From positions 3,968,001-4,032,000 of the forward strand of contig NZ_CP014513.1 of assembly GCF_001577365.1 (NCBI RefSeq): DNA of 64,000 nt, read 5' to 3'. The translations under genes were made by a program, and so were the position numbers. The stretch is from Frondihabitans sp. PAMC 28766. GTDB lineage: Bacteria; Actinomycetota; Actinomycetes; Actinomycetales; Microbacteriaceae. The notes under the pieces are model-generated. The model ran no database searches and was not told where the DNA came from. It saw only the letters and a list, made by a program, of their open reading frames with translations. How positions within the stretch are numbered: the first letter of the stretch is position 1; each line of letters begins with the position of its first letter. Shown one piece after another: positions 1,883 through 30,153 of this stretch.

Positions 1883-1884
1883 CG

Positions 1885-2997: not shown

Positions 2998-3792
2998 CTA
3001 CTTGCCCTCGAACTTCGGCGCGCGCTTCTCGGTGAAGGCCGTGAGACCTTCGCGGGCATCCTGCGTGCCGGCCAGCATCGCGAGGGCCTGGGCCTCGTCT
3101 TCGAGCGACGCTTCGAAGGGCTGGCTGAGCGCGCGGCCCAGAAGGCGACGGATCTCGCCGTAGGCACGCGTCGGGCCTGCGCCGAGCTGCGTCACGAGCT
3201 CTTCCGCGCGGTCGGCGAGGCGGTCGTCGTCGACCACTTCGTCGACGAGCCCGGCCTGAAGCGCCGCGTCGGCGCCGAGCATCTCGGCGAGGAGCAAGAA
3301 CCGCCTGGCCCGAGAGACTCCCATGCGCGATGCCAGGCCGAACGACGCACCGAGGTCCATGCTGAAGCCGAGTCGTGGGTAGGCCGCGCCGAACTTGGCC
3401 GACCGGGCGCTGATCACGAGGTCGAAGTTCGACAGGACCGCGACAGCGCCGCCCATGGCGGTGCCCTGCACTGCGGCCACGAGAGGTGCATCCATCCGGC
3501 GAAGGCGTGCCAGCCCGGGGTGCATCGTGGAGGTGCCGTCGAGCACGGCGGCCGGCGCCTGATCGAGGTCCTTCGTGAAGACGCTGACGTCTCCTCCGAC
3601 GCTGAAGAACTTACCGGTGGACCGGAGCAGGACCGCCCTGATCTCGCCGCCGAGGACTGCCAGGTGGTTCGCCGCGTGCCCGAACTCCTCGAAGAAGTCG
3701 GCGTTCATGGCGTTCCCCGCGTCGGGTCGCGCGAGCGTCAGTCTCGCGATTCCTCTCTCGACGTCGAGTTGGATCGTCTTGTAGTCACGCAA
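2998..3792 (-). CDS. Enoyl-CoA hydratase/isomerase family protein
   Basis: This is a crotonase-fold protein of about 264 residues, last gene of the long minus-strand operon. The oxyanion-hole segment AVQGTAMGGAVAV is clear. The second region (AYPRLGFSMDLGASFGLASRMG) lacks the PE..LG glutamate of true hydratases, so isomerase, thioesterase or other crotonase chemistry is possible. I prefer the TTG at 3790-3792, which has GGAGGG seven bases upstream and gives a normal N-terminus (MRDYKTIQ). An ATG at 3807 in the same frame has no ribosome site. Either start overlaps the preceding SDR gene. Confidence 0.7.
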   Translation of the reverse strand: MRDYKTIQLDVERGIARLTLARPDAGNAMNADFFEEFGHAANHLAVLGGEIRAVLLRSTGKFFSVGGDVSVFTKDLDQAPAAVLDGTSTMHPGLARLRRMDAPLVAAVQGTAMGGAVAVLSNFDLVISARSAKFGAAYPRLGFSMDLGASFGLASRMGVSRARRFLLLAEMLGADAALQAGLVDEVVDDDRLADRAEELVTQLGAGPTRAYGEIRRLLGRALSQPFEASLEDEAQALAMLAGTQDAREGLTAFTEKRAPKFEGK

Positions 3793-4564
3793 CGGAAATC
3801 CCTCCATTGATACTGATGGCTTGGCCTGTCATCCGCCGAGCGGCCGGACTCGCGAGGAAGACAGCCATTGTGGCGAGATCCTCGGCTTCGACGACCCCGA
3901 GATGTGCGAGGGAGGCCGCCTTCACGAACATCTTGGCGCTGAACGGGTCGCCGTCGATGAGAGCCGATCCCGGCGTGTTCGCAATCAGGGACGGCGTGAG
4001 CACGTTGATCCGGATTCGCTCGCGCTTCACTTCGAGAGCGGTCGCCTTGCAGAACAGGACGAGGGCGGCCATCGCGGCACCGATCAGAGTCTCCCCGGGA
4101 GTCGGAACCTTCGCCGCATCCGAGGCCACCACGACGATGCATCCGTCATTTCGAGCCCGCATGTCGGCGAGCACAGCGTGGATCAGATGCAGCGGCGGCA
4201 GGATGATCTCCTCGATCCGGGGCGCCACCTGGTGGATCGTGATGTCGTGAAGGAGCCGTGGCGGCTGGCTCGGGCCGGTCGTGGTCACGAGCACGTCGAT
4301 GGCACCGAGCCGCGCCCGGCAGTCCGCCTCACAGGCGACGGCCTGGTCCGGATCCGCCGCGTCGACTCGTACGTACGACACGTCCGCCCCCGGCAGGTCG
4401 TCCGTCAAGCGGCGCACGGCCGCGTCACCGCGCTCCGAATCTCGCCCGAGCAGGATCACGTGCGCCCCGGACCGAGCGAAGTGCCGCGCCGTCTCCCAGC
4501 CGACTCCGGCTGTGCCGCCGAGAACGACGACTCGTCGGTCGGACTTCGTCGAGTCGGCGTCCAT
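3785..4564 (-). CDS. Atypical SDR-fold protein lacking the usual active site (copy 1)
   Basis: A 259-residue Rossmann protein of the short-chain dehydrogenase family. The dinucleotide-binding glycine motif is present (LGGTAGVGWETA), and the C-terminus ends TGQAISINGGISVA. However, the NNAG motif is replaced by TTTG, and the YxxxK region reads PTPGETLIGAAMAAL, with neither the tyrosine nor the lysine. Two close relatives lie at 31229-32023 and 32025-32831. It may bind NAD(P) but use different catalysis, or have lost oxidoreductase activity. Its start overlaps the stop of the upstream gene (TGATG), which indicates translational coupling. Confidence 0.75.
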   Translation of the reverse strand: MDADSTKSDRRVVVLGGTAGVGWETARHFARSGAHVILLGRDSERGDAAVRRLTDDLPGADVSYVRVDAADPDQAVACEADCRARLGAIDVLVTTTGPSQPPRLLHDITIHQVAPRIEEIILPPLHLIHAVLADMRARNDGCIVVVASDAAKVPTPGETLIGAAMAALVLFCKATALEVKRERIRINVLTPSLIANTPGSALIDGDPFSAKMFVKAASLAHLGVVEAEDLATMAVFLASPAARRMTGQAISINGGISVA

Positions 4565-5463
4565 CAGCCAGCGGTCCGCTGCGCTTTGCTGGCGGCGGAG
4601 GCCGCTTTGCTGGTCTCGCGGATGTCGATCCACTCCTGGTCGGTGACTTTCGTGAGAGCGGCGAAGGTACCGGGCCCCGCGAGGCGCTGGCCCCCGTCCA
4701 TGGCGATGGTCTCGCCGGTGAGGTAGTCGCAGGCGTCCGAGAGCAGGAAGATCGTCAGCGCCGCGAGCTCCTCGATCGTGCCGACCCGGCCCATCGGGAT
4801 CTGGTCGGGCTGGGTGGCGCCGACAGCGCTCGAGTCGGTCGGGTTGAGCATCTCCCAGGCGTAGTCGGTCGGAATCGGGCCTGGTGCCAGGGCGTTCAGG
4901 CGGATCCCGTAGCGGGCCCATTCCACGGCGAGCGACATCGTCATCGCGTGGACCGCGGCCTTGGCCATGGCCGAGGGCACGACGAACGCCGAGCCCGTCC
5001 AGACCCAGGTCGTGAGGGTCGAGAGGACCGAGCCCGGGAGCCCCTCGGCGATCCAGCGCCTTCCCGCGGCGTGGGTGGTGTTGAACGAGCCGTTCATCAC
5101 CGTCGAGCTCACGGCTTCGAACGCGCGCGTGCTCAGTGAGGCTGTCGGAGCGATGAAGTTACCGGCGGCATTGTTGATCACGCTCGTCAGAGGCCCGTGT
5201 TCGTCCCAGATGCGCGACATCGCAGCGTCGACCGAATCGCCCTGTCGGACGTCTACGCTGTCGACGAATACGCGTCCCGACCGACCGCCGGACGCTTCTT
5301 CCGCCGCCTCTTCGAGCACGGACAAGCGTCGGCCCCAGAGATGGACCTCGGCCCCGTGGGCGACGAGGTGACTAGCCACCCCGCGCCCCAGTCCGGTGCC
5401 GCCCCCGGTGATGAGCACCCGTTTGCCCTCGAGCACGTCCGGCGCGAAGATCGACTTCGCCAC
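4564..5463 (-). CDS. SDR of 2,4-dienoyl-CoA reductase type
   Basis: This 299-residue protein carries TGGGTGLG near residue 20, NNAAGNF in the place of NNAG, and PSAMAKAAV where classical SDRs have YxxxK. That combination, with serine instead of tyrosine, is the hallmark of mitochondrial/peroxisomal-type NADPH-dependent 2,4-dienoyl-CoA reductases. It would reduce a conjugated dienoyl-CoA. In this operon it could remove a second ring or side-chain double bond before the BadK/BadH/BadI steps. That role is inference. An alanine-rich tail follows the family core. Start ATG at 5461-5463, one base downstream of the badI stop. Confidence 0.75.
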   Translation of the reverse strand: MAKSIFAPDVLEGKRVLITGGGTGLGRGVASHLVAHGAEVHLWGRRLSVLEEAAEEASGGRSGRVFVDSVDVRQGDSVDAAMSRIWDEHGPLTSVINNAAGNFIAPTASLSTRAFEAVSSTVMNGSFNTTHAAGRRWIAEGLPGSVLSTLTTWVWTGSAFVVPSAMAKAAVHAMTMSLAVEWARYGIRLNALAPGPIPTDYAWEMLNPTDSSAVGATQPDQIPMGRVGTIEELAALTIFLLSDACDYLTGETIAMDGGQRLAGPGTFAALTKVTDQEWIDIRETSKAASAASKAQRTAG

Positions 5464-5464
5464 G

Positions 5465-6259
5465 TCAGTTGCCCCGGTACGGAGCGAAGTCGGGCTTCCG
5501 CTTCTCGTTGAACGCGGTGATGCCCTCCTTCGCCTCCGGCGAGTCGCCGAAGAGTCGGAGGCTCGAATACGCCATCTGCCCGATGCCCGCGAAGTGCTCG
5601 GTGTCGGTGTTGAACGACTGCTTGAGCACCTTGAGCGACGTGGGCGACAGGTTCAGGATCTCGTCCGCCCACTGGCGCACCTCGGCGTGCAGCTGGTCGA
5701 GCGGCACGACCTTGTTGATGAGCCCCCACGCCTCGGCCTGGACGGCCGAGTACTGCCGGCAGAGGAACCAGATCTCGCGCGCCCGCTTCTCGCCGATTAT
5801 CCGGGCCATGTAGCCGGTCCCGAAGCCGGCGTCGAAAGATCCGACGCGCGGACCGTTCTGGCCGAAGATCGCGTTGTCTGAGGCGATGGTCAGGTCGCAC
5901 AGCATGTGCAGCACGTGACCGCCGCCGATGGCGAAGCCGTTGACGGCCGCGATGACGGGCTTCGGGGCGTCGCGGATGACTCGGTGCAGAGACTCGACCT
6001 CGACGAGGCCTGACTCGGAGGGCCCGTAGTCGCCGGTCTCGGCGCGCTGCTTCTGGTCGCCGCCGGTGCAGAAGGCCTTCTCACCTGCTCCGGTGAGAGC
6101 GATGACGCCGACGTCGTCGCTCGCCCAGGCTTTCTTGAAACTCAGGATGAGTTCGTCGACGGTGCGCGCGCGGAACGAGTTGTACCTTTCGGGTCGGTTG
6201 ATCGTGATCCAGGCGAGACCGTTGTCGACCTCGTAGGTGACGTCTGTGAAGTCGTCCAT
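5465..6259 (-). CDS. badI: 2-ketocyclohexanecarboxyl-CoA hydrolase (BadI-like ring opening)
   Basis: The 264-residue crotonase-fold protein resembles Rhodopseudomonas BadI over its whole length, as judged from memory of that sequence. Diagnostic stretches are AFCTGGDQ (residues 62-69), AVNGFAIGGGHVL, and GPRVGSFDAGFGTGYMAR (136 onward), where the Asp of SFD is the MenB/BadI active-site residue. The REIWFLCRQYS and SFNTDTEH stretches match too. BadI hydrolyses the beta-keto ring of 2-ketocyclohexanecarboxyl-CoA to pimeloyl-CoA. MenB, the nearest alternative, is encoded separately at 54707. AAAGAGGA precedes the ATG. It lies in one operon with badH and a badK candidate. Confidence 0.82.
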   Translation of the reverse strand: MDDFTDVTYEVDNGLAWITINRPERYNSFRARTVDELILSFKKAWASDDVGVIALTGAGEKAFCTGGDQKQRAETGDYGPSESGLVEVESLHRVIRDAPKPVIAAVNGFAIGGGHVLHMLCDLTIASDNAIFGQNGPRVGSFDAGFGTGYMARIIGEKRAREIWFLCRQYSAVQAEAWGLINKVVPLDQLHAEVRQWADEILNLSPTSLKVLKQSFNTDTEHFAGIGQMAYSSLRLFGDSPEAKEGITAFNEKRKPDFAPYRGN

Positions 6260-6297
6260 GGTGATTCCTCTTTCTCGTGTTTGTCGGCCAGGCGAAG

Positions 6298-7101
6298 TCA
6301 GGATCCGGTGAAGTGCGGGGGGCGTTTCTCCCGGAAGGCGGCCAACGCTTCGGGCATGTCGGCGGTGCGTGTGAGGAGCGTCTGGCCGCGATTCTCGAGT
6401 TCCATCGCGGCCGCGTACGAGTCGATCTCCTGGTTGAGCCGAAGAGCCGTCTTGGAGAGCCGGACTCCCGACGGCGAGTTGCCGCAGATCGTCGTCGCCA
6501 TGGCGAGAGCGTCGTCGACGACTCCGCCTTCCGCGCTGATCGAGTTGACGAGCCCCAGTCGAAGTGCCTCGTCGGCCGCGACGAAGCGCCCGGTGAACGC
6601 TAGTTCGGCGGCGAACGCCGGGCCGATGAGCCGCGGCAAGAGCCACGACGCACCGAGGTCGCCGGCCGAGAGCCCGATCCGGGCGAAGGCGGCGTTGAAG
6701 CGAGCCGTCGGGGAGGCGATCCGGATGTCGGCGGCGAGAGCGAGCGAGAGTCCTCCGCCGGCCGCGGCCCCGTTGACCGCGGCGATGACCGGGATCCTGA
6801 GGTTGCGGATCGCAACGAGGCCCCGGCTCCCCCTCTCCTGCAGGTTCAGCATCTCCATTGCCGACAGGGTCGCGAGCTCGCCGGCGGCGTCGATGTCGTA
6901 GCCACCGCAGAACGCTCGTCCGGCGCCCGTGAGCACCAGGACGCGGACGGAGAAGTCCGTCGTGATCCTGCGCGCGAGAAGCTCGAACTCGTCGAACATG
7001 AGGGCCGTCATCGAGTTGAGGCGGTCCGGCCGGTTCAGCGTCGCCACGACGATGCCGTCGTCGCGCCACTTCACCTGGAGTGTCTCGAAGTCGTCGGTCA
7101 C
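6298..7101 (-). CDS. Enoyl-CoA hydratase/isomerase family protein
   Basis: A 267-residue crotonase homologue. The oxyanion-hole segment is AVNGAAAGGGLSLALA, and the second catalytic segment reads IGLSAGDLGASWLLPRLIG, with Asp where classical hydratases carry Glu164. This pattern is common in actinobacterial EchA paralogues of unknown substrate. Its ATG overlaps the stop of the BadK-like gene by four bases (ATGA), so translation is coupled. Possible jobs are hydration of a branched unsaturated intermediate such as 3-methylglutaconyl-CoA, or isomerisation. Substrate is not recognisable. Confidence 0.75.
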   Translation of the reverse strand: MTDDFETLQVKWRDDGIVVATLNRPDRLNSMTALMFDEFELLARRITTDFSVRVLVLTGAGRAFCGGYDIDAAGELATLSAMEMLNLQERGSRGLVAIRNLRIPVIAAVNGAAAGGGLSLALAADIRIASPTARFNAAFARIGLSAGDLGASWLLPRLIGPAFAAELAFTGRFVAADEALRLGLVNSISAEGGVVDDALAMATTICGNSPSGVRLSKTALRLNQEIDSYAAAMELENRGQTLLTRTADMPEALAAFREKRPPHFTGS

Positions 7102-7883
7102 GAGAACTCCGGTCGGCGCTTTTGCACGAAGGCGGCGATGCCCTCGCGCCCTTCGCCGGACTCGAAGAGGTCTCGGATCTCGTGACGCTCGAGGGCGATG
7201 CCGTCGGCGAGCGGAAGTGTGTCAGAGGCATCGACGGAACGGAGCGCGGCCAGGAGCGCGGGGTAGGACGACTCACGCAGCTGGCTCGCGAGGGCGAGCG
7301 CTTCCATCCGGGCCTGACCGGCCGGCACGAGCCGGTCGACGAGCCCCATGGTGAGGGCCTCCGGCGCCTTTATCTGCCGCCCGGTGAGGATCATGTCGAG
7401 CGCGTGCCCGCGGCCGACGAGGCGCGGAAGCCGCTGGGTTCCCGCAGCCCCGGGGATGAGCCCGAGTTTGACCTCGGGCACCCCGAACTCGGCGTCGGCC
7501 CCGGCGACCCGAAGGGTGCAGGCCGCCGCGAGTTCGAGGCCGCCGCCGAGGGCGAGTCCCTCGACTGCGGCGACGGTGATCCGGGTCGACGCCGCCACGC
7601 GCTCGATCATGTGCCGCAGGGCATCGCCGTATTCCTCGAAACCTCTCACGTCGACCGATGCCATGAGCTTGATATCGGCTCCGGCGGCGAAGAATCCCGG
7701 CACGGTCGACGCGAACAAGATGACCTTCACGTCGCCGTGGGCGTCGGCCGAGTCGAACGCCTGCTCGATGCCTTCGATCAGGGGAATGCCTAGGGCATTG
7801 GCCGGAGCGCGCCCGAGGTCGACTCGAACGATGCCGCCGGGGAGGGTCTCCCAGGTGACCACCGTCTTCTTGATGTCGGTCAT
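7098..7883 (-). CDS. Enoyl-CoA hydratase, candidate cyclohex-1-ene-carboxyl-CoA hydratase (BadK-like)
   Basis: This 261-residue protein has both classical hydratase glutamates: the one in GGGLELAAAC and the one in PEVKLGLIPGAAGTQRLPRL. It also has FAAGADIKLM in the CoA-binding loop. It is therefore a genuine syn-hydratase, unlike the other crotonases of the operon. Position directly after badH makes it the best candidate for hydrating cyclohex-1-ene-carboxyl-CoA to the 2-hydroxy compound used by BadH. A general short-chain enoyl-CoA hydratase remains possible. The ATG has AGGAGGAG just upstream, the strongest ribosome site in the operon. Confidence 0.78.
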   Translation of the reverse strand: MTDIKKTVVTWETLPGGIVRVDLGRAPANALGIPLIEGIEQAFDSADAHGDVKVILFASTVPGFFAAGADIKLMASVDVRGFEEYGDALRHMIERVAASTRITVAAVEGLALGGGLELAAACTLRVAGADAEFGVPEVKLGLIPGAAGTQRLPRLVGRGHALDMILTGRQIKAPEALTMGLVDRLVPAGQARMEALALASQLRESSYPALLAALRSVDASDTLPLADGIALERHEIRDLFESGEGREGIAAFVQKRRPEFS

Positions 7884-7894
7884 GGCGACTCCTC

Positions 7895-8653
7895 CTAGGC
7901 CATCGTCAGGCCGCCGCTGACGGACAGCGTCTGGCCGGTGATGTAGCCGGTCTGATCCCCGGCGAAGAAGACGACGGCCGCGGCGACGTCCGACGGCTGC
8001 GCCAGACGTCGCATCGGAACGCCGCGGGTCATCCCGGCGAGCACCTTGTCGGCGTCCTCGCCCGAGTTGTCGGCGAATTTGCGCAGAGCCGGGGTGTCGG
8101 TCGGCCCCGGGCAGACGGTGTTGGCCGTCACCCCGCTCTTGGCGACCTCGCGGGCGAGGGTCTTCGTGAAGGCGATGATGCCGCCCTTGGCGCCCGAGTA
8201 CACGGCCTCGAGTGACGAGCCCACCCGACCCGCATCCGAGCCGATGTTGATGATCCTGCCCCAGCCCCGCTCCATCATCCCGGGCACGATCGCGTGTGTC
8301 ACCCGGAGGGCGCCCTTGAAGTTGAGGTCGAGGATGCGGTCCCAGAACTCCTCGGTCGTGTCGACGAAGGGCATGAAGTCGTCCCAGCCCGCACAGTTGA
8401 CGACGATCTCGATGGGCCCGAACTCCGCCTCGACCGCCGCGACGCCGGCCTTCACCGACGCGGTGTCGGTGACGTTCGCGCTCACGGGGATCGCCGTCCC
8501 TCCGGCGTCGGTGATGCCCTGGGCCGTAGCCGTTGCGGCTTCGACATTCAGATCGGCGACGGCGACGCGGAAGCCGGCGACGCCGAGGGCCACGCAGATT
8601 CCCTGGCCGATTCCGGATCCGCCGCCGGTGACGAATGCGACTCTGTTACTCAT
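7895..8653 (-). CDS. badH: 2-hydroxycyclohexanecarboxyl-CoA dehydrogenase (BadH-like SDR)
   Basis: This 252-residue classical SDR has TGGGSGIG, NCAGWD and YSGAK in the right places. Several stretches match Rhodopseudomonas BadH as I recall it: the NCAGWDxFxPF loop, GRIINIGSDAGRVGSS, VCPGPTDT and the end TGQTLSVSGGLTM. BadH oxidises 2-hydroxycyclohexanecarboxyl-CoA to the 2-keto ester with NAD+. The ATG at 8651-8653 has GGAG nine bases upstream; earlier in-frame ATGs are less well placed. It sits just upstream of the BadK candidate and two genes before badI, giving the full hydrate-oxidise-hydrolyse set in one transcript. Confidence 0.82.
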   Translation of the reverse strand: MSNRVAFVTGGGSGIGQGICVALGVAGFRVAVADLNVEAATATAQGITDAGGTAIPVSANVTDTASVKAGVAAVEAEFGPIEIVVNCAGWDDFMPFVDTTEEFWDRILDLNFKGALRVTHAIVPGMMERGWGRIINIGSDAGRVGSSLEAVYSGAKGGIIAFTKTLAREVAKSGVTANTVCPGPTDTPALRKFADNSGEDADKVLAGMTRGVPMRRLAQPSDVAAAVVFFAGDQTGYITGQTLSVSGGLTMA

Positions 8654-8699
8654 GTCAAGCTCCATTGCTCTAGGGGTGATCATCTCTCGTCGGTCAGGA

Positions 8700-9629
8700 T
8701 CAGACGAGGGTCGAGTTCCATTCGACCGGTCCGGCCGTGATCGAGTGGCTGGTCAGCTTTCGCCCGAGAACCGCCTGCGCCTCTCGAGCCGACTCGATCA
8801 CGCCGGCCAGTGAGAGGCCTGTTTCGACGCCCATCTCGTGGAACATGCTGACGAGGTCTTCCGTGGCGATGTTGCCGGTCGAGCCGGCTGGAACCGGGCA
8901 GCCGCCCAGTTCGCCGAAGCTGGACTCGAAGCTCGCGCAGCCGACCTCCAGAGCGGCGAACGCGTTGGCCAGCCCCTGCCCGCGCGTGTTGTGGAAGTGC
9001 GCGGTGACCTCGACACCCTTGAGGCGATCGAGAGCGGCCGTGAAGAAGTCCGACACGTATGCCGGGTTCGCCATGCCGGTGGTGTCGCCGAAGCCGATCT
9101 CGGTGGCCCCGGCCGCAGCGAACCGCTCGGCGAGGTCGAGTACGCGCCCCAGCTCGACGTGGCCTTCGTAGGGGCAGCCGAACGACGTCGCGATGACGGC
9201 GGCGCAGGTGAGCCCTTCGGAGGTGATCCGGCGCGCCATCACCTCGTTGTCGGCCATCGACTCGGCGACGGTGCGGTTCACGTTCTTCTTGTTGTGCGTC
9301 TCGGAGGCGCTCACGAAGATCGCCGCCTCGTCGAACAGGTCACGGACGACGAGCGCGTTGTCGAGGCCCTTGCTGTTCGGGATCAGGACCATCTTCGCCA
9401 CGTCGGACGGCACGTCGATGCGGCGGAGAACCTCGACGCCGTCGGCCAGCTGCGGAATGACGTCGGGCCGCACGAAGCTGGCGATCTCGATGCGCTTGAA
9501 GCCGGCGCGACCAAGAGAGTTGATGAGCCGGATCTTGTCGTCGGTCGGCACTGTCTCGGGTTCGTTCTGAAAACCATCGCGCGGCCCGACTTCTCGGATC
9601 GTGACGCGACTCGGTCGGAGGTTGTTCAT
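8700..9629 (-). CDS. Hydroxymethylglutaryl-CoA lyase
   Basis: A 309-residue TIM-barrel lyase of the HMGL-like/DRE-TIM family. It has EVGPRDGFQNE at the N-terminus (catalytic Arg-Asp), SASETHNKKNVN, the metal ligands in AHFHNTRGQG, and GGCPVPAGSTGN with the active-site cysteine of the GGCP loop. It cleaves 3-hydroxy-3-methylglutaryl-CoA to acetyl-CoA and acetoacetate. The ATG at 9627-9629 follows an unusually long purine tract (9630-9660 on the minus strand) that should bind 16S rRNA strongly. Its location between a CoA-transferase and badH suggests a branched C6 intermediate arises in this pathway. Confidence 0.88.
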   Translation of the reverse strand: MNNLRPSRVTIREVGPRDGFQNEPETVPTDDKIRLINSLGRAGFKRIEIASFVRPDVIPQLADGVEVLRRIDVPSDVAKMVLIPNSKGLDNALVVRDLFDEAAIFVSASETHNKKNVNRTVAESMADNEVMARRITSEGLTCAAVIATSFGCPYEGHVELGRVLDLAERFAAAGATEIGFGDTTGMANPAYVSDFFTAALDRLKGVEVTAHFHNTRGQGLANAFAALEVGCASFESSFGELGGCPVPAGSTGNIATEDLVSMFHEMGVETGLSLAGVIESAREAQAVLGRKLTSHSITAGPVEWNSTLV

Positions 9630-20857: not shown

Positions 20858-20879
20858 CAGATACTCCTCGAGGTGTCGA

Positions 20880-21892: not shown

Positions 21893-21906
21893 ATTGGTCT
21901 AATCAT
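21893..21906. promoter_or_regulatory. Operator ATTGGTCTAATCAT
   Basis: This site differs from the 247-260 copy at one base. It lies between the divergent oxidoreductase (start 21859) and thioesterase (start 21939) genes, 33 bases before the latter. The position is typical for an operator overlapping a promoter. Confidence 0.62.
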
Positions 21907-21938
21907 TGTACTGTGAGAAAAGAGAGGAACGAGATCTC

Positions 21939-22665: not shown

Positions 22666-23820
22666 TCAGAGCGAGACGGTGCCGCGCGCGATGATCTCTC
22701 TCGAGATGATCGTCTTCTGGATCTCGGCCGTTCCGTCAGCGGTGAGGTAAGCCATGACGTCGCGGAATCGCTGCTGCAGCGGAAATTCGGCCGAGTACCC
22801 GAGGTTTCCGAAGATCTTCATGGACGCCTCGATGGCCTCTTTGGCGACCAGCGGCCCCCACCACTTGCCCATCGATGCCAGAGACGTGTGCGACTTGCCC
22901 TCGCCTCGCAGCCACAGCGCCCGGTAGCAGACCCAGCGAGCACCCTCGACGTAGGTCGCGTGCTCGGCGAGCGGGAACGTCACGCCCTGGTACTCCGAGA
23001 GCGGCTTGCCGAAGGTCTCGCGCTGGGTCGCGTAGACGGCGGCCTCCTCGAGGCTCTGCTGGGCAGCGCCGAGGCACATGAGGCCGAGAGCGGCCCGACT
23101 GAAGTCGAACTTGTTCATCGCCACCTGGAAGCCGCGCCCCTCTTCGCCGACGAGGTGCGAGTCGGGCACGAACACGCTGTCGAGGTTGATCGATCCCCAT
23201 CCGAGCACGAGGCAGCCCATGCCGCGCATGTGCCGCACCGACACGCCCTCCGACGCCAGGTCGACGAGGAAGCAACTGACCCCCTTCGAGCGCGACGAGC
23301 CGGGCTCTCGGGCGTAGACGAGCGCCGCGGTCGCACTCAGGGCCCAGCTGATCGCGGTCTTCTCACCGCTGAGGCGCCAGCCGCCGGGAACCCTCGTGGC
23401 CGTCGTGCGAAGCGCGCTCGCGTCGGATCCTGAACCGGGTTCGGTCAGCGCGATGGCGAGGTTGATCTCGCCGGCGATCACCCGGGGCAGGTAGGCCTGT
23501 TGGACCTCGTCCGATCCGTGCAGCAGCTGGGCGCCGACGAGGCCCACCTGGATGGGCGCCGACGCCAGGTTGACGTCGCCATAGGCGAGCGTCTCAGTGG
23601 CGAGGCCGAGCAGCACCGGGTCGTCTTCACCGGTGCCGCCGAACCGCTCGGGGAAGCCGATGCCCAGGACCCCGAGGTCGCCCATCTTCTTGAGAGTGGC
23701 GAACGGGAACTCGGTGGTCGCGGAGTTCGCGAGGTAGTTCGGGAGGAGCTCTCTGTCGCTGAACTCCTTCAAGACCTTGCGGAAATCCTCGTGCTCTTCG
23801 CTGAGTGAGAAGTCAAGCAT
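22666..23820 (-). CDS. Acyl-CoA dehydrogenase, cyclohexanecarboxyl-CoA dehydrogenase candidate
   Basis: A 384-residue acyl-CoA dehydrogenase with ALTEPGSGSDASALRTTA, SGEKTAISWA and the C-terminal segment FGNLGYSAEFPLQQRFRD, whose Glu is the likely base. The tail ADGTAEIQKTIISREIIA resembles enzymes acting on alicyclic CoA esters (AliB-like), in place of the EGTS form of straight-chain enzymes. It is divergent from an acyl-CoA ligase (24018) across an operator, so ligase plus dehydrogenase could activate and desaturate a cyclohexanecarboxylate for BadK. That specific role is inference. Confidence 0.83.
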   Translation of the reverse strand: MLDFSLSEEHEDFRKVLKEFSDRELLPNYLANSATTEFPFATLKKMGDLGVLGIGFPERFGGTGEDDPVLLGLATETLAYGDVNLASAPIQVGLVGAQLLHGSDEVQQAYLPRVIAGEINLAIALTEPGSGSDASALRTTATRVPGGWRLSGEKTAISWALSATAALVYAREPGSSRSKGVSCFLVDLASEGVSVRHMRGMGCLVLGWGSINLDSVFVPDSHLVGEEGRGFQVAMNKFDFSRAALGLMCLGAAQQSLEEAAVYATQRETFGKPLSEYQGVTFPLAEHATYVEGARWVCYRALWLRGEGKSHTSLASMGKWWGPLVAKEAIEASMKIFGNLGYSAEFPLQQRFRDVMAYLTADGTAEIQKTIISREIIARGTVSL

Positions 23821-23837
23821 CGGCGCTCTCCCGGTAA

Positions 23838-23850
23838 ATGGTCCAATGAT
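23838..23850. promoter_or_regulatory. Operator ATGGTCCAATGAT
   Basis: A member of the island operator family, 18 bases upstream of the dehydrogenase ATG at 23820 on the minus strand. It is followed by TGG, so that a second inverted copy overlaps it. Such a position would block transcription or early elongation of the dehydrogenase gene. Confidence 0.58.
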
Positions 23851-23935
23851 TGGCTGGACAGATCCGAGTGTATCCGGCGGGAATGACAGGTTGGTGAAGA
23901 TCCCGACGCCCCGATTCTCGGGGGTTGGGCGATTA

Positions 23936-23949
23936 ATTGGTTGAATTAT
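23936..23949 (+). promoter_or_regulatory. Weak operator-like site ATTGGTTGAATTAT
   Basis: Eleven of 14 positions match the island operator. It lies about 70 bases upstream of the ligase ATG at 24018 in an AT-rich patch (GATTAATTGGTTGAATTATT), which probably also contains the ligase promoter. Weaker than the other copies. Confidence 0.4.
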
Positions 23950-24017
23950 TCGACCATGCAGCCTACTCTCCTGTCAGGAGTTCCCGACTCCGTTCGACCT
24001 GCGAAGAAGGAGCGTCG

Positions 24018-25667
24018 ATGACCACGTCCGTTCATGCCCTAAGACAGTCTTTCTGGCCGGCTGAAGGCAGCTCCGGAGTCCGCGACATCACCCTGGGCGA
24101 GCTTCTTCGCGAGGCTGCGGAGGCCGCCCCCGAACGGCTCGCCCTCGTGGACGCCGTGGCGGATCCTGCCCTCCGTCGTCACTGGACGTACGCGGAGTTC
24201 CTCGCCGAGACCGAGAACGCGGCGAGGGCCCTCCTGAGCCGCTTCGAGCAGGGCGACCGGATAGCGATCTGGGCTCCGAACAGCGCGGAGTGGGTGATTC
24301 TGCAGCAGGCGATCGCCATGGCCGGGATGATCGTCGTCGCCATCAACCCCGCCTACCGCGCTCATGAATTGGAGTACGTCCTGACGCAGTCGGGCGCAGT
24401 CGGCATGTTCCACATCGAGTCGTACCGGGGGGCCGATCTCACCTCGACCATCACGGAAGTGCGCCAGAAGGCGCCGCACCTGCGTGAGCTGATCCGATTC
24501 TCGGAGTGGGACGCCTTCGTCGCTTCGGGCGACCCGGCCACGGCAATGCCCTCGGTCAAGCCGACCGACCCCGTCCAGATCCAGTACACCTCCGGCACGA
24601 CCGGGTTCCCGAAGGGTGCTCTCCTGCACCACAAGGGAATCGCGAACGAAGCGGCGTTCGTCGGAGAACGCGCCGGAATGACCGACGGCGACATCTGCAT
24701 CAACGCCATGCCGATGTACCACATCGGTGGCGGAGCGGTCACGGAGCTCTCGACGATCGCCTGGCACGGCACCTACGTCGTGATGCCGAACTTCGACCCC
24801 GGCCTGACCCTGGAACTCTTCGAGACGTACCACGGCACCCACGCCCTCATGGTGCCCACAATGCTCATCGCGACGCTCGACCACCCCGACTTCGCGAGCC
24901 GCGACAAGTCGTCGATCAAGACGCTCATGTCCGGGGCTGCGGCAGTCGCCGAACAGCTCGTGCACCGCGTGATGGAACAGTTCGGCTGCCAGTTCAGCAT
25001 CCTCTTCGGTCAGACCGAGATGCACGGAGTCGTCAGCCAGACCCGGGTCACCGACAGCGCGGCCGACCAGGCCGGCACAGTAGGTCAGCCGCTCCCCGAG
25101 CTCGAAGTGAAGCTTGTCCATCCCGACACCGGCGAGATCGTGGGAATAGGCGAGCAGGGCGAGATCTGCTGCCGCGGTTACCAGAACATGCTCGGGTACT
25201 ACGAGATGCCCGCGGCGACCGCCGAGACGATCGACAGCGACGGCTGGCTGCACATGGGCGACATCGGCACCATGGACCAGCGCGGGTTCCTTCGGGTCAC
25301 GAGTCGCGTCAAAGACATGATCATCCGCGGCGGGATCAACGTCTACCCGCGCGAGATCGAAGACCTTCTGTTCGACCACCCCGACATCGCCGAGGTCGCG
25401 ATCATCGGGATCCCGGATCCCAAGTGGGGCGAGCACGTGGGCGCGGTAGTCCGCCTCCGTGACGGGCGCCCCGCGCCGGACCCCGAGCTCGTCCGCCTCT
25501 GGTGCAAGGAGAGAATCTCCGCGCACAAGGTGCCGAGTCACTGGTACTTTGTCGACGACTTCCCGATGACGCCGTCTGGCAAGATCCAGAAGTTCGTCCT
25601 GCGCGATCTCATCGCCGCCGGAGAGCTCGTCGCCGTCGCGGTTCACAAGTCGGCGTCGCCAATGTGA
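24018..25667 (+). CDS. AMP-forming acyl-CoA ligase (FadD/AliA-like)
   Basis: A 549-residue adenylate-forming ligase. The motifs YTSGTTGFPKG, FGQTEMHG, WLHMGDIGTMDQRG, KDMIIRGGINVYPREIE and PSGKIQKF (catalytic Lys) are all present. AAGGAG stands nine bases before the ATG. It activates an acid to its CoA ester. Its regulatory pairing with the candidate cyclohexanecarboxyl-CoA dehydrogenase makes cyclohexanecarboxylate or a substituted relative a reasonable substrate, but medium-chain fatty acids cannot be excluded. It converges with the PaaX gene, with 30 bases between. Confidence 0.85.
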   Translation: MTTSVHALRQSFWPAEGSSGVRDITLGELLREAAEAAPERLALVDAVADPALRRHWTYAEFLAETENAARALLSRFEQGDRIAIWAPNSAEWVILQQAIAMAGMIVVAINPAYRAHELEYVLTQSGAVGMFHIESYRGADLTSTITEVRQKAPHLRELIRFSEWDAFVASGDPATAMPSVKPTDPVQIQYTSGTTGFPKGALLHHKGIANEAAFVGERAGMTDGDICINAMPMYHIGGGAVTELSTIAWHGTYVVMPNFDPGLTLELFETYHGTHALMVPTMLIATLDHPDFASRDKSSIKTLMSGAAAVAEQLVHRVMEQFGCQFSILFGQTEMHGVVSQTRVTDSAADQAGTVGQPLPELEVKLVHPDTGEIVGIGEQGEICCRGYQNMLGYYEMPAATAETIDSDGWLHMGDIGTMDQRGFLRVTSRVKDMIIRGGINVYPREIEDLLFDHPDIAEVAIIGIPDPKWGEHVGAVVRLRDGRPAPDPELVRLWCKERISAHKVPSHWYFVDDFPMTPSGKIQKFVLRDLIAAGELVAVAVHKSASPM

Positions 25668-25697
25668 TCGGCCGAGGCCCGCGGCCGACCGCGGGCC

Positions 25698-26585
25698 TCA
25701 GTCGGCGAGCTCGTCGATCGCCGACCAGCGGTCGGCGACCTCCTCGGCCCAGCCTTCACGCAGGGACTGCAATCGATGCGACACCCGGCGCCCGATCCAG
25801 CCGGGCAGAAGGGCCTCGGGCAACTGAGGGTCGGAGAACGGGAAGCGCTGGATCTCGTCGAGCGCCCGGACATGGGCGAACAGGACGCCGTCGACCTCGC
25901 CGGATCGCGGCCGGGAAAAGTGCGACTCAACCTCGGCGTAGTCGTCCGCGAGAGTTTCGAGGTCCCAGCCCTTCGCTACCAGGTCGGCTTCGGAGAGTCC
26001 GAGCGGCTCGGTGGACCCGGTGAAGGCGAGGGTGGACTCCGCCAGCCCGAGCTTGTCGATCAGAGCGCTCGCCTGCGCGCGGCGTTCCCGGTGCGGGGTG
26101 ATCCAGACCGCAGCGGCGGGGTTGCCGAAGCCGGCCCACTCGAGGGCGCGATAGAGGCGCTTCCGGCTCGTTCGGAGGGCCTGCGGCACAGTCACGAACA
26201 GGATCAGCCAGCTGCCGTCCCAGTCGACGAACGGGTCGCTCAGCGAGAGGAGCCGCCGCGATCCCTCCTCGAAGATCGCGGAGAGATGAGGGGTCACCGA
26301 CCAGCTGACCTCGCGCCCGTGACGGTGCGCTTCGATCCAGCCGGAGTCGGCGGCTCGCACGATGGCCTGCCGAGCGGCGCTCTCCTCGATGCCGAGTCCG
26401 TTCATGACGTAGAGGAGCGACGACGTCTTCGCCGACCGACCCGTCGGCCACACCAGCTCGCCCAGGATCGTCAGCAGCACGGATCGCGCACTCCCCCGCG
26501 CCAGATCGGCGTGCCCCCCCTGTCGCTCGCGCCGAGGGGGCGACGCTGCCGGTGCGGGCGCGGTCACCCGTGCCGACGTCGTCAC
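25698..26585 (-). CDS. PaaX-family transcriptional regulator
   Basis: A 295-residue PaaX-like protein. It has an N-terminal winged helix (SVLLTILGELVWPTGRSAKTSSLLYVMNGLGI and the following SAARQAIVRAADSGW), the central SWLILFVTVPQALRTSRKRL segment, and the C-terminal PaaX domain with PEALLPGWIGRR. PaaX repressors respond to aryl-CoA esters such as phenylacetyl-CoA. Here it is the last gene of the reductase operon, and its ATG overlaps the activator stop (ATGA). This suggests that an aromatic or alicyclic CoA ester controls the operon. Confidence 0.85.
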   Translation of the reverse strand: MTTSARVTAPAPAASPPRRERQGGHADLARGSARSVLLTILGELVWPTGRSAKTSSLLYVMNGLGIEESAARQAIVRAADSGWIEAHRHGREVSWSVTPHLSAIFEEGSRRLLSLSDPFVDWDGSWLILFVTVPQALRTSRKRLYRALEWAGFGNPAAAVWITPHRERRAQASALIDKLGLAESTLAFTGSTEPLGLSEADLVAKGWDLETLADDYAEVESHFSRPRSGEVDGVLFAHVRALDEIQRFPFSDPQLPEALLPGWIGRRVSHRLQSLREGWAEEVADRWSAIDELAD

Positions 26586-27523
26586 CCGACGAGTCGCTTG
26601 GTCTGAAGCGTCAGCGAGACGGGTCCGTGCGAGTGACCGGCGAGGTTGCCGTCGCAGTCCTGGCAGTGCGGCGCGGCGACCGCGAGCCCCGCGACCAGGT
26701 CGCGCTCGGTAGCGACGTCGGACTCGGCCGCCTTGAGGTTGCCGAGGTGCTCCTCGCGGGCGATGATCGCGGCGCCATAAGCGCCGGCTATCTGCGGCTC
26801 GTCGAGCATCTCGATCGGCAGGCGCAGGGCGTCGGAGAGGAACGCGACGAGCGCCTCATTCTTGGCGACCCCGCCGGTCATCACCACCGGAGACGCCTTG
26901 CCGACCTGGGCCACGAGCCCCAGGGTCCGGGAGGCCACGGCCTTGTGCACCGAGGCGGCGATATCGGTCCTCTCGGCGCCCTGAGCCAGGAGCGAGATGA
27001 CCTCGGTCTCGGCGAAGGTCGCGCACATGCTGCTGACCTCCAAGTCGCTGTCGCCGGTCAGCGCGAGCGCGCCGACCTCGTTCACCGGCACCTCGAGGGC
27101 GCGGGCGAGCACGTCGAAGAATCGACCGGTACCGCTGGCGCAGCGGTCGTTCATGGCGAACCGGTCGACCAGGCCGTCGTCGTCGACGGCGATCGCCTTG
27201 CTGTCCTGCCCGCCGATGTCGATGACTAGCCGGACGCCGGGGAACAGAGCCGCGGCGCCGCGTGCATGGCAGGTGATCTCGGTGAATGTCTTGTCGGAGG
27301 TCGGAACGAGCTTGCGCCCGTAGCCCGTGCTGATGGTCCGGACGATGTCGTCCTGCGTGATTCCGGCTTCGTCGAGCGCGGCGGCCATCGCGACGGTGAC
27401 CGCCTCCTTGCTGACGGCACCCATCTGGACGATCTTGGATCCGACCATCGTGCCCGAGGCGTCGACAATCGAGACCTTCGCCGTCGTCGATCCGAGGTCG
27501 ACGCCCATCACGTACCAGTTCAT
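26582..27523 (-). CDS. 2-hydroxyacyl-CoA dehydratase / benzoyl-CoA reductase ATPase activator (ASKHA, [4Fe-4S])
   Basis: This 313-residue ATPase drives one electron at very low potential into its partner enzyme in HgdC, BcrA and BcrD systems. It shows the actin-fold phosphate loop DLGSTTAK (9-16), IDIGGQDSKAI (101-111) and VMTGGVAKN. Cysteines 128 (CASGTGRF) and 167 (CATFAETEV) sit almost exactly at the cluster ligand positions of HgdC. Unlike HgdC it has about 45 extra C-terminal residues containing C287-x2-C290 and HSH. Only one ATPase is encoded, so it probably works as a homodimer. It lies in one operon with the BcrB- and BcrC-like genes. Confidence 0.88.
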   Translation of the reverse strand: MNWYVMGVDLGSTTAKVSIVDASGTMVGSKIVQMGAVSKEAVTVAMAAALDEAGITQDDIVRTISTGYGRKLVPTSDKTFTEITCHARGAAALFPGVRLVIDIGGQDSKAIAVDDDGLVDRFAMNDRCASGTGRFFDVLARALEVPVNEVGALALTGDSDLEVSSMCATFAETEVISLLAQGAERTDIAASVHKAVASRTLGLVAQVGKASPVVMTGGVAKNEALVAFLSDALRLPIEMLDEPQIAGAYGAAIIAREEHLGNLKAAESDVATERDLVAGLAVAAPHCQDCDGNLAGHSHGPVSLTLQTKRLVG

Positions 27524-27568
27524 CGCGGTTCCCTTCGTCTGCTCACCCTACGACCCGAGCGCCTGCCG

Positions 27569-28963
27569 TCAGACGAGCGCCCGGGCGCGCTGCATGTCGA
27601 TCGTCTCGAGCATGGCGACGAGGCCGCTCTCGAGCTGGTCGTCCTTATAGAAGGAGGCGTCGGCGACGTCGCCCTCGAAGAAGAACGACTTGATGCCGCG
27701 GTCGCGCTCGGCCGTCTTGGCCAGGATGTGCTGCGGGTTGGTCATGGCGCGGCAGGTGCGGGTCGAGTGGAACGCGATCCCGTCGATGCCGTATTCGTCG
27801 CAGCGCTTGATCAGCAGCTCTTCCATGATCTTCAGGCCGTGGTTGATCGGGCAGATCAGGTAGTGCTGCGCCATGCCGAGCAGCGGGTTGTCGACGTCGA
27901 TGAGGTCGGGTTCCTGCCAGAACGAGTCGTGCGTGTAGCGGCCCGCGACGACGGCGACGTCGAACTCGGCGAACTTGCGGGTGAGCCAGCCCAGCTTGTT
28001 CCAGTTCATGATCCCGTCGAAGTAGACCCGGTAGCGCTCGTTCGCAACGGCCGAGACGTTGTCGATGATCCGCTGCTGGATCTCGTCTTTCACGGCCTGG
28101 AAGTAGTCGACCAGCATCTGGTTGGCCGGCAGGAAGTTGATCGGCGCGATGCTCGCCACCCAGTCCCAGTAGGTCGCCGGCGTCGGTGCCGCGGCGCACA
28201 GGGCCATCGCCTCGAGACGCAGCTCGGAGGCGCGCTTGATGTAGTACATGTTCTCGCTCAGGGCGTCCCAGTCGAACGGCTTCTTCGTCTGGTACTCGAT
28301 GAACTCGATCAGCTTCTTCAGCTGCTCCTCGACGTATTTCGGGGTGGTCTCCCACTCCTTGCCGCGCAGGTAGCCCGCGTCGGGCTTGTTGCCCCAGATC
28401 ATCGGCAGCGACACGTTGAAAATCGGGAACTCCTTGCCGAAGACCCGATAGGTCATGGCATCCCACTGCTGGCCGGTGCTGCATCCGGCGTAGGCGTTGA
28501 CGAAGAAGTCCGGTGACGGGAGCTTGGCGGCAAGCTCGTCCTGATCGACCATGCCGACGATGCCGGACTGCTTCTCGGTGATGCCCTTCTGCGTCATGAC
28601 GGCGCAGCCGAGGTGGGTGCGCGCGTACGAGCAGAGCTCGCCGATGTAGCCGTACTCCTCACCTGCCGCCTGCGCCGGACCCTCGAGGTGCATCGCAGCG
28701 AGGCGGGCCGAAAACGCCTCACCGTGGCACCACTCGAGGCCGGCGGCCTGGAAGATCGGATTCAGCGCCGTGCCGTTGTACCAGACGACGTGCTTGCCGC
28801 GCTCCTTGGCAGTGAAGATGTTCTCCCAATACTGGGCGACCATCTTGCCGCCGGACTTCGTGGTTGCGAGTCGGTTCGACTTGTCGGGCACGGCGAGCGT
28901 ACGGTCGCGGGTCGAGAGCAGCTCGAGCGGCTGACGCGTGGGGGGTTCGAGGTCCAACGACAT
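27569..28963 (-). CDS. Benzoyl-CoA reductase BcrB-like / 2-hydroxyacyl-CoA dehydratase subunit
   Basis: A 464-residue protein of the HGD-D superfamily. Cysteines at 79 (GLEWCHGE), 111 and 120 (ELCSYARTHLGC) and 161 (AYAGCSTG) are candidate [4Fe-4S] ligands, and STRTCRAM near the C-terminus precedes FFFEGDVADASFY, the counterpart of the (D/E)GD.xD motif. This subunit with the BcrC-like one forms the heterodimer that reduces or dehydrates a CoA ester. The ATG at 28961-28963 lies 11 bases downstream of the preceding gene. Whether it is a ring reductase or a dehydratase cannot be decided from sequence alone. Confidence 0.82.
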   Translation of the reverse strand: MSLDLEPPTRQPLELLSTRDRTLAVPDKSNRLATTKSGGKMVAQYWENIFTAKERGKHVVWYNGTALNPIFQAAGLEWCHGEAFSARLAAMHLEGPAQAAGEEYGYIGELCSYARTHLGCAVMTQKGITEKQSGIVGMVDQDELAAKLPSPDFFVNAYAGCSTGQQWDAMTYRVFGKEFPIFNVSLPMIWGNKPDAGYLRGKEWETTPKYVEEQLKKLIEFIEYQTKKPFDWDALSENMYYIKRASELRLEAMALCAAAPTPATYWDWVASIAPINFLPANQMLVDYFQAVKDEIQQRIIDNVSAVANERYRVYFDGIMNWNKLGWLTRKFAEFDVAVVAGRYTHDSFWQEPDLIDVDNPLLGMAQHYLICPINHGLKIMEELLIKRCDEYGIDGIAFHSTRTCRAMTNPQHILAKTAERDRGIKSFFFEGDVADASFYKDDQLESGLVAMLETIDMQRARALV

Positions 28964-28974
28964 GGTGTGCCTTC

Positions 28975-30153
28975 CTAGGCCAGGCTCGGGACAGTGGATT
29001 TGCTGCGGCGGATGCGTTCGACGAAGGTCTCGACGCGGGTCCGGACGGACTCTTCGGCGAGCCCCTCGTGTTCGGTCTCGATCAGCAGCACGGGGATGTC
29101 GTGGCCGTCGAGAGCCTTCTTCAGTTCGGGGTAGTAGAGCATCAGCGGTTCGCAGAACTTCGACATCAGCGTGATGACGCCGTCGGCGGCGCTGTCGTCG
29201 AGGCTCGACACCAGGTAGCTGTCCCAGTCGACGTTCCGCTGCACCCGCGTGCCGCAGGGAGCGTTGACGTTGCGATCGAGGTACCAGAGGGCCAGCGCGT
29301 CGAAGGGGTCGACGTCTTCGGGCACATCCGTCGAGATGTAGCGGAACCCGTGGTACAGGTCGTCGTTCACGACGAGCACGCCGCACTCCTCGATGACGTC
29401 GAGCAGCTCGGGCCGGGGAGGAGCGCAGAAGTGGCCCGAAAGATGGATCCGGACGAGCGAGTCGGGTGCAGCAGCGTCGGGCGTGAGACCGTCTCGAAGC
29501 CGGAGCAGGATCGCGGTGTGCTCCTCGATGTCCATGACCATGCTCGACTTGACGAGGGTCTGCATCTCGGAGGCGGTGATCCGGAGGACGCCCTGGCGGC
29601 GGAGGTCGTAGAACTCGCGCAGGATCCTGCGGTTCTCGTTGAAGAGGCGGATGCTGTTCGCAAGACGCTCAGCCGTCACGACCGTGCCGACGATCTCTTC
29701 GACCTCGACCCGGAGCGAGCCGATCTTGTCGCGCACCTGGGCCCCGCTCCACGGGTCGTCCATCGAGCTGATGAACTGGGCGAAGTGCACGGGCTTCGAA
29801 GGGATCGACCAGCGGATCACGTCGACGGCACCGAGGAGCTGAACGCAATGATCGGCGAGGACGAACGCGTCGAACACGTCGAGTTCGCCGACTGCCGCCT
29901 GGTCGGCGAGGCTCCGCGTGTAGCCGCAATAGAACTCCGGAAGAAGGCTGCGGCCCTCAGTGATCGGAGTGCGGCTCTCCTGAATCACGACGGGCAGCGC
30001 CCCGGTCGCATGAGTGAGCTCGGAGGGGAAGTTCATCGGGAAGCTGCCCACGACCGGATGCCCCGTGCGCGCCTTCCAGCCCTGGGCGTAGGTCACCGGA
30101 TCGGCCGCAGCGGACGCCAGCAGGGCGTACGCCTCGGGGTTCAAATCGGACAT
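28975..30153 (-). CDS. Benzoyl-CoA reductase BcrC/BadD-like subunit
   Basis: A 392-residue partner of the same superfamily. Three conserved cysteines are visible: C76 in EFYCGYTRSLADQAA, C103 in LADHCVQLLGAVD and C334 in SKFCEPLMLYYPELKKA, the last followed by VLLIETEHEG. The order and surroundings match BcrC/BadD and HgdB-type subunits that hold a [4Fe-4S] cluster. It is the first gene of the operon, downstream of a sigma70-like promoter. Known family members are oxygen-sensitive, so its presence in a presumably aerobic actinobacterium is notable. Confidence 0.83.
   Translation of the reverse strand: MSDLNPEAYALLASAAADPVTYAQGWKARTGHPVVGSFPMNFPSELTHATGALPVVIQESRTPITEGRSLLPEFYCGYTRSLADQAAVGELDVFDAFVLADHCVQLLGAVDVIRWSIPSKPVHFAQFISSMDDPWSGAQVRDKIGSLRVEVEEIVGTVVTAERLANSIRLFNENRRILREFYDLRRQGVLRITASEMQTLVKSSMVMDIEEHTAILLRLRDGLTPDAAAPDSLVRIHLSGHFCAPPRPELLDVIEECGVLVVNDDLYHGFRYISTDVPEDVDPFDALALWYLDRNVNAPCGTRVQRNVDWDSYLVSSLDDSAADGVITLMSKFCEPLMLYYPELKKALDGHDIPVLLIETEHEGLAEESVRTRVETFVERIRRSKSTVPSLA

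Follow-up and report, generated by a model that had tools for sequence, protein, structure and literature searches.

Two operons in one catabolic island

The window analysed here is a stretch of 64,000 nucleotides from Frondihabitans sp. PAMC 28766 (NZ_CP014513.1, positions 3,968,001 to 4,032,000; host genome size 4.77 Mb). It contains a catabolic island that spans positions 311 to about 34,100 and is followed by two tRNA genes. Two operons of the island lie on the minus strand, a ring-cleavage operon (15173-2998) with relatives of the BadH and BadI enzymes, and a second one (30153-25698) encoding two HGD-D subunits, alpha and beta, together with one activase. The stretch between both operons encodes ligases, further dehydrogenases, an AliB-like dehydrogenase and hydratases (Table 1). 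Judged from its sequence, the alpha/beta/activase complex probably represents a third, apparently undescribed subfamily of the benzoyl-coenzyme A (CoA) reductase/2-hydroxyacyl-CoA dehydratase (BCR/HAD) radical enzymes, a family known from anaerobes.

A sequence-only reading of this DNA had placed BadH-like, BadI-like and BadK candidate genes in one operon, and profile scores confirmed them. The hydratase, BadH-like and BadI-like genes lie together (5465-8683) and are also adjacent in G007, a presumed Subtercola genome of the same family. The BadI-like protein missed the cut-offs of both TIGR03210 (340 bits, cut-off 467.6) and the menB model PRK07396 (352.5 bits, cut-off 380), and the BadH-like protein reached 297 bits with TIGR03206 (cut-off 431.2), the next family scoring 208; by score, both appear to be relatives of the Bad enzymes rather than equivalogs. 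A housekeeping MenB identity for the gene at 5465 was ruled out by a separate menB-like frame at about 54.7 kb, near genes for a thiamine pyrophosphate enzyme, an AMP ligase and an enolase-like protein (menD/menE/menC-type genes at 49.7-56.7 kb), so that the copy at 5465 is the catabolic one. ResB and DsbD-like cytochrome c biogenesis genes (57777-60315) adjoin these menaquinone-type genes. Among the 28 genomes sampled from the genus of Rhodococcus jostii (G199; R. opacus is G200), BadI relatives of a type A, 80-81% identical to the window protein, were present in nine, and a second BadI group (65-67%) in 11, four of them without alpha. By these identities the window BadI falls into type A, and the second group may be the cyclohexanecarboxylate type.

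Table 1. Genes of the island, with percentages giving identity to the window protein.
Feature	Coordinates	Strand	Evidence
Acyl-CoA ligase (AMP-binding)	311..1882	+	Pfam AMP-binding 264 bits; 74% in G007 region; conserved in Subtercola
Class III (CaiB/BaiF) CoA-transferase	1636..2997	+	PF02515 284 bits; domain start ~1900; top NCBIfam model succinate-glutarate CoA-transferase, under cut-off
Enoyl-CoA hydratase/isomerase family	2998..3807	-	PF00378 147 bits
Short-chain dehydrogenase/reductase (SDR)	3785..4564	-	PF13561; domain part of open reading frame (ORF) 3785-4921; 72% in G007
2,4-Dienoyl-CoA-reductase-like SDR	4564..5463	-	NF005811 226 bits (cut-off 318); 86% G007, 80% R. opacus
BadI/MrcE-like ring hydrolase, type A	5465..6268	-	TIGR03210; 92% G007, 80% R. 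opacus
Enoyl-CoA hydratase family	6298..7101	-	PF00378 180 bits
Enoyl-CoA hydratase, BadK/MrcF candidate	7098..7883	-	PF00378 171 bits
BadH/MrcD-like 2-hydroxycyclohexanecarboxyl-CoA dehydrogenase	7895..8683	-	TIGR03206; 82% G007, 74% R. opacus
3-Hydroxy-3-methylglutaryl-CoA (HMG-CoA) lyase family (HMGL)	8700..9623	-	NF004283 319 bits (above cut-off 246); 78-84% in relatives
Acetyl-CoA hydrolase/CoA-transferase family	9665..10957	-	PF13336 133 bits
Thiolase	10903..12105	-	TIGR01930 427 bits, above cut-off
FabG-like SDR	12105..12854	-	NF009466 229 bits, above cut-off
Acyl-CoA dehydrogenase	12854..14020	-	PF00441 132 bits; NCBIfam
Acyl-CoA dehydrogenase, IpdE2-like	14031..15173	-	PF00441 80 bits; NF050027 118 of 450 bits
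GntR/FCD regulator	15276..16043	+	PF07729, PF00392
Acetoacetyl-CoA-synthetase-like ligase	16065..18016	-	split over two frames
Acyl-CoA dehydrogenase, PimC-like	18013..19194	-	TIGR03204 194 bits (cut-off 624)
MaoC-like hydratase	19494..20075	+	PF01575 78 bits
Enoyl-CoA hydratase family	20072..20860	-	PF00378 192 bits, scored on ORF 20072-21103
Zinc-binding oxidoreductase	20880..21859	-	PF00107; split over two frames
Hot-dog thioesterase	21906..22643	+	PF03061 30 bits
AliB-like acyl-CoA dehydrogenase	22666..23820	-	TIGR03207 306 bits (cut-off 575)
Acyl-CoA ligase of the HGD-D module	23937..25667	+	PF00501 285 bits
PaaX-family regulator	25698..26585	-	PF20803, PF07848, PF08223
Acyl-CoA dehydratase activase (single ATPase)	26582..27523	-	BcrAD_BadFG 202 bits; TIGR00241 239 bits, above cut-off
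Alpha subunit (HadB/BcrB position), active-site subunit	27569..28963	-	HGD-D Pfam 145 bits, scored on ORF 27569-29386
Beta subunit (HadC/BcrC position)	28975..30153	-	PF06050 226 bits; Cys pattern
Alpha/beta hydrolase	30219..31232	+	PF12697 84 bits; divergent from HGD-D module
SDR dehydrogenase	31172..32023	+	76% in G007
SDR dehydrogenase	32025..32831	-	closest to SDRs near the module elsewhere; at least 50% in 45/59 loci

A putative radical complex apart from known families

The second operon had been taken to encode BcrC-like and BcrB-like subunits with an activator. An HGD-D pair and an activase are indeed present; both subunits score better against the Had models (HadC 166, HadB 126 bits) than against the Bcr models (BcrC 148, BcrB 70 bits). 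This gene content, two HGD-D subunits and one activase, is that of 2-hydroxyacyl-CoA dehydratases, whereas class I benzoyl-CoA reductases have two different ATPase subunits (BcrA/D, BzdP/Q, MbdP/Q), as is also visible for Mbd in the PDB rows. The activase is the sole strong PF01869 match in the genome (the other match above the cut-off has 62 bits and lies 2.6 Mb away) and would act as a homodimer. It ends in a C-terminal Cys-x-x-Cys tail, both Cys columns of which are kept in at least 80% of 53 aligned relatives.

A protein search with alpha found 1166 matches, the 120 listed being 65-89% identical, and the window protein was aligned with ten of these 120. From 64 alpha rows, 21 were used for the tree, 29 plus four reference rows for the alignment behind the structure model, and 63 for the residue table (one row under 430 residues was left out). 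The HAD and Mbd rows of that table were every fourth of 120 listed, one Mbd row being left out for length. In the predicted structure of alpha the closest fold is HadB. The sequence-only reading had named a firm grouping with 2-hydroxyacyl-CoA dehydratases as a result that would count against it; in the tree the 21 new rows instead formed one clade of their own (100/100), separate from 13 HAD and 15 Mbd rows and weakly joined to the latter (93/54) over long branches. A CSTGQQW motif is unique to the new rows, and a WYxG motif also sets them apart from HAD. Cys95, Cys128, Cys380, Glu65, Tyr97 and Tyr298 are invariant in 63/63 alpha rows, a set that is not diagnostic for a benzoyl-CoA reductase because the 30 HAD rows keep it equally. 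His131 and Trp46 of BzdO are absent, which counts against the Bzd type only, since the Mbd rows lack them too. For comparison with the beta subunit, the six Cys that bind the [8Fe-9S] cluster of the Bzd-type N subunit were taken from PMC11971306. Cys is found at four of the six positions aligned to BzdN, while Cys36 is replaced by Pro and Cys263 by an aromatic residue in 60/60 rows (60 of 63 beta rows entered this table); this again excludes only the Bzd type, because MbdN lacks both as well.

Equivalog models were missed on either side: the HadBC models NF052455/NF052456 (126 of 750 and 166 of 700 bits) and the benzoyl-CoA reductase models TIGR02260/02263 (69.9 of 486.6 and 148.5 of 421.2 bits) and TIGR03191/03190 (47.2 of 448.6 and 109.4 of 453.8 bits). 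In addition, the host genome has no match to a PF01558 oxidoreductase (11 of 14 control genomes were positive; other electron donors were not searched for), which removes one usual low-potential electron supply. The single activase, the missed reductase cut-offs, HadB as nearest relative, the lack of PF01558 and the ring-dioxygenase homologues found in five of nine genomes (see below) all argue against the earlier assignment of the complex as a benzoyl-CoA reductase. A relative in Subtercola boreus is auto-annotated as such.

Recurrence of the island and distribution of the complex

Subtercola (G007), R. opacus and a plasmid of R. ruber all carry the greater part of the island as one unit. The G007 region (3.761-3.808 Mb) holds BadI, BadH, HMGL, CoA-transferase, thiolase, FabG, dehydrogenases, synthetase, alpha, beta, activase, ligase and the dienoyl SDR, and R. 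opacus has the same set within 189-232 kb of one contig, the genes of this set being 57-92% identical to those of the window. At E<=1e-15 the GntR gene had no match in the G007 region, and the zinc oxidoreductase, thioesterase and alpha/beta hydrolase had none in the R. opacus region, where the AliB-like protein is matched at no more than 28%. On plasmid pmega_1 of R. ruber the core set is present, with adjoining genes for a cytochrome P450 (P450), a ferredoxin, a FAD oxidoreductase, and alcohol and aldehyde dehydrogenases. Because most of the set recurs in other genera, it goes beyond chance. Catabolic islands do gather genes, and each operon occurs somewhere without the other, as would be expected if two independent catabolic operons had become neighbours in a variable region; conservation as a 38-56 kb unit over genera and families, on plasmid and chromosome, makes this explanation very improbable.

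Furthermore, within the R. jostii genus alpha was present in 9/10 genomes with the island P450 and in 0/18 without it, and was shared by eight of the nine genomes with type-A BadI and by eight of the nine with HMGL (Fisher test with shared ancestry ignored: P450, p 1.4e-6; BadI type A and HMGL, p 2.5e-5). The second BadI group also leans alpha-positive (7/9 vs 4/19, p 0.01 by the same test). The earlier proposal of a joint pathway thereby gains comparative support: the operons travel together and one of them resembles alicyclic acyl-CoA ring opening, which suggests that both serve one pathway, although not with the benzoyl-CoA reductase role proposed for the complex.

A scan of 84,980 species, one genome each, with two peptide patterns found 59 loci with the complex. 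Actinobacterial loci include Rhodococcus, Nocardia, Gordonia, Brevibacterium, Citricoccus, Amycolatopsis, Pseudonocardia and Nocardioides, and 15 of the 59 are proteobacterial (e.g. Paracoccus, Mesorhizobium, Novosphingobium and Zhongshania); these bacteria live aerobically. The complex is rare overall. Alpha was found in 1/396 Actinomycetota genomes at E<=1e-60, namely the host genome itself, and HGD-D proteins of any kind in 6/199 genomes of the family. Four further genomes of the family carry HGD-D pairs with lower Pfam scores (51-148 bits). Two alpha copies, 5-36 kb apart, occur in four loci and in the genomes of R. jostii and one other strain, the second being 66-71% identical to the window alpha where measured.

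Genes in the 59 loci were ORFs picked by conservation within 10 kb flanks, which are shorter at contig ends, so that neighbour counts are lower bounds; clusters at 42% identity lump paralogues (SDRs, ligases, hydratases). Over 60 loci including the window, the ligase cluster was found in 48, the SDR in 45, PaaX in 32, the class III CoA-transferase in 25, an AliB-like gene in 16 and a BadI-like gene in 15. BadI (at least 70% identity) lies within 10 kb of the complex in 12/59 loci, the dienoyl SDR (at least 70%) in 11/59 and BadH (at least 60%) in 4/59; with wider flanks the link between BadI and the complex becomes strong in actinobacteria. Genes for an APH-type phosphotransferase and a DUF7064 protein recur near ring-cleavage or complex genes of relatives (five loci); neither was found in the window.

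Lastly, four window genes are apparently split between frames: the synthetase (break near 16,690), the zinc oxidoreductase (21,500), a thiolase at 32902-34082 (33,490) and the menB-like gene (54707-55549). The R. ruber counterpart of the synthetase is a single 652-codon frame. Assembly errors seem more likely than decay, because a seemingly housekeeping gene, menB-like, is among those affected.

A possible pathway and its counterparts

The reading that we favour, still tentatively, is that the island breaks down cyclohexane acids with a 4-alkyl substituent, most likely of the p-menthane type, aerobically and via CoA esters, with the help of a dehydratase-like radical complex. Ligases would convert the ring acid to its acyl-CoA, and the ATP-driven activase would deliver one electron to the alpha subunit, where a ketyl radical could form at the [4Fe-4S] cluster as in 2-hydroxyacyl-CoA dehydratase. 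Elimination of an oxygen substituent alpha to the thioester (ring C1) would then give cyclohexene-carboxyl-CoA (C1=C2), the presumed substrate of the ring-opening enzymes, and beta-oxidation enzymes could lead to a 3-alkylglutaryl-type CoA, the branch of which would be processed by HMG-CoA lyase, CoA-transferase or the acetoacetyl-CoA-synthetase-like ligase, and thiolase. By analogy, the complex most likely works like a 2-hydroxyacyl-CoA dehydratase; FldA and HadA are class III CoA-transferases, and we lean to this function because of the class III CoA-transferase in 25/60 loci, the single activase, fold and score, and the lack of PF01558.

Clues to the substrate come from the relatives. The P450 of the R. 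ruber island has P450tol (688 bits) and P450terp (473 bits) as best matches, and the substrate of P450terp is alpha-terpineol. When a 4-alkylcyclohexane ring is opened, a 3-alkyl branch results, for which HMG-CoA lyase, an acetoacetate-type ligase and thiolase offer an established route; the island enzymes could well have this function here. P450tol performs benzylic hydroxylation of toluenes, according to PMC11219674. An M. paragordonae plasmid carries BadI (83%), dienoyl SDR (77%), BadH (77%) and HMGL (78%), BadI being about 55 kb from the BadH operon, and also holds a set of genes for a ring dioxygenase, an extradiol dioxygenase, an aldolase and an acetaldehyde dehydrogenase; with its cumate-like dioxygenase set, P450s and LuxR pairs this plasmid looks monoterpene-catabolic. 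In G620, presumed R. wratislaviensis, counterparts of three proteins of the M. paragordonae set are encoded 14-22 kb from BadI, namely of its ring dioxygenase (43%), extradiol dioxygenase (70%) and amidohydrolase (36%); within the 36 kb searched, no counterpart was found of its aldolase, acetaldehyde dehydrogenase or hydratase. In 5/9 alpha-positive genomes of the R. jostii genus, type-A badI has a ring-dioxygenase homologue (45-46%) at a distance of 14-49 kb; one more of these genomes has such a homologue on another contig, and none was found in the other three at E<=1e-90. The sequences thus point to p-menthane-type acids as substrate, possibly with an aromatic branch via oxygenases in some strains.

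Alternatively, the complex might be a true BCR-like dearomatase working in aerobes, for instance on 4-isopropylbenzoyl-CoA or 4-methylbenzoyl-CoA, with the dienoyl SDR making the monoene for BadH/BadI. The linkage of BadI/BadH to the complex, an SDR conserved at 80-86% in the island, a P450 nearest to the toluene methyl hydroxylase P450tol, Cys243 of beta in common with MbdN, the weak tree join to Mbd and the failure to find cumate-type dioxygenase genes of the M. paragordonae set in 20 kb of R. opacus (232-252 kb) would fit such an enzyme. The single activase, HadB as nearest by fold and score, and the missing PF01558 donor enzyme do not, and the dioxygenase genes of G620 hint at a separate, oxygen-dependent route for an aromatic acid; the loss of BzdO His131 and Trp46 speaks against a Bzd type only. 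We regard a dearomatase as improbable, and the wider proposal, that aerobic actinobacteria and proteobacteria perform ATP-driven Birch-type dearomatisation of alkyl aryl-CoA and pass the diene through a dienoyl-CoA reductase to BadH/BadI in parallel to oxygenases, as quite improbable.

Several observations weigh against the p-menthane-type pathway itself. The documented substrates of these strains include no alpha-hydroxy ring acid, and the host genome lacks a P450tol/terp-like enzyme (best 28%), so that the pathway there would begin at the acid or alcohol. By sequence, the equivalog cut-offs for HAD, BCR, BadH and BadI are all missed, the alpha rows cluster outside both HAD and Mbd, and a Lys of 30 HAD and 29 Mbd rows is replaced by Gln in 63/63 alpha rows. 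Ring-cleavage genes also occur without the complex: G602 has the P450, BadI and HMGL but lacks alpha, and the M. paragordonae plasmid, which matches 16/35 window queries at 55% or more, gave no match to alpha (the chromosome was unsearched). On the Azoarcus KH32C plasmid, the complex (362-366 kb) lies about 30 kb from adjacent BadI-like (54%) and BadH-like (49%) genes (393-394.6 kb), which are surrounded by MaoC, thiolase, CoA-transferase and acetoacetate-CoA-ligase genes; no counterpart of the window dienoyl SDR or HMG-CoA lyase was found in that stretch (E<=1e-20), and the BadI cluster was seen in 0/15 proteobacterial loci within 10 kb flanks. These last two results limit our confidence in the pathway. 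They also speak for the idea that the complex acts on linear post-ring products or on a ring-unrelated acyl-CoA, such as a hydroxylated chain, and is tied to the BadHI operon by no more than common regulation or inheritance. A Peripla_BP_6 periplasmic binding protein gene in seven loci, with neighbours that resemble an ATP-binding cassette importer by look (they were unscanned), and the APH-type phosphotransferase-like genes of relatives, which hint at other hydroxyacyl-CoA chemistry, agree with it. The joint occurrence of the complex, the P450 and the ring-cleavage genes in R. jostii and its congeners, and the single KH32C plasmid that holds both the complex and BadI/BadH-like genes, make it rather unlikely.

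A conserved and apparently undescribed branch of the BCR/HAD radical enzymes that has an active-site motif of its own and lies among catabolic genes in Rhodococcus, Nocardia, Gordonia, Mesorhizobium and Novosphingobium would show that this chemistry is also used under air. It hints at a missing step, open to experimental test, in how cyclic plant terpenoids and related acids are degraded. Automatic annotation frequently names these genes benzoyl-CoA reductase, and pathways predicted for aerobic soil bacteria could be wrong as a result.

Compared with HadBC/HadI of Clostridioides difficile, the new alpha rows form a separate deep clade marked by the Lys to Gln exchange and the CSTGQQW and WYxG motifs, and the setting is ring cleavage instead of amino-acid fermentation, in aerobic hosts. 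The class I reductases BzdNOPQ, MbdNOPQ and BcrABCD/BadDEFG share the superfamily, the catalytic ligands and BadHI-type genes nearby, but they have two activases against one in the window, the new beta rows lack BzdN Cys36 and Cys263, and equivalog cut-offs are widely missed. For Castellaniella defragrans, PMC4109377 proposes opening of the perillyl-CoA ring via MrcF, MrcD (BadH-like) and MrcE (BadI-like), reports that the cluster encodes MaoC proteins as well as MrcC, which is annotated as a 2,4-dienoyl reductase and is required for growth on limonene, and finds the closest MrcDEF relatives among Azoarcus and Thauera strains in KH32C. By that description, mrc genes and window alike have BadH-like, BadI-like, hydratase, MaoC and annotated 2,4-dienoyl reductase functions; the likeness of the dienoyl SDR and HMG-CoA lyase, without KH32C match, rests on annotation or is absent. 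The part of that paper available describes no HGD-D complex in the mrc cluster, and the window adds HMG-CoA lyase. The sequence-only reading had considered such systems to be known mainly from anaerobic or phototrophic proteobacteria, archaea and clostridia. That no longer applies to the ring-opening genes: PMC5906575 reports a BadH/BadI cluster induced on cyclohexanecarboxylate in aerobic R. aetherivorans and PMC9795900 surveys bad-ali clusters in aerobic Rhodococcus. It does stand for an HGD-D complex in aerobes, of which the literature titles listed give no description. Like the window, these bad-ali/chcpca clusters combine BadI, BadH and AliA/AliB-like functions under air; the window BadI differs in being type A, 80-81% identical to its Rhodococcus relatives and 65-67% to the second BadI group.

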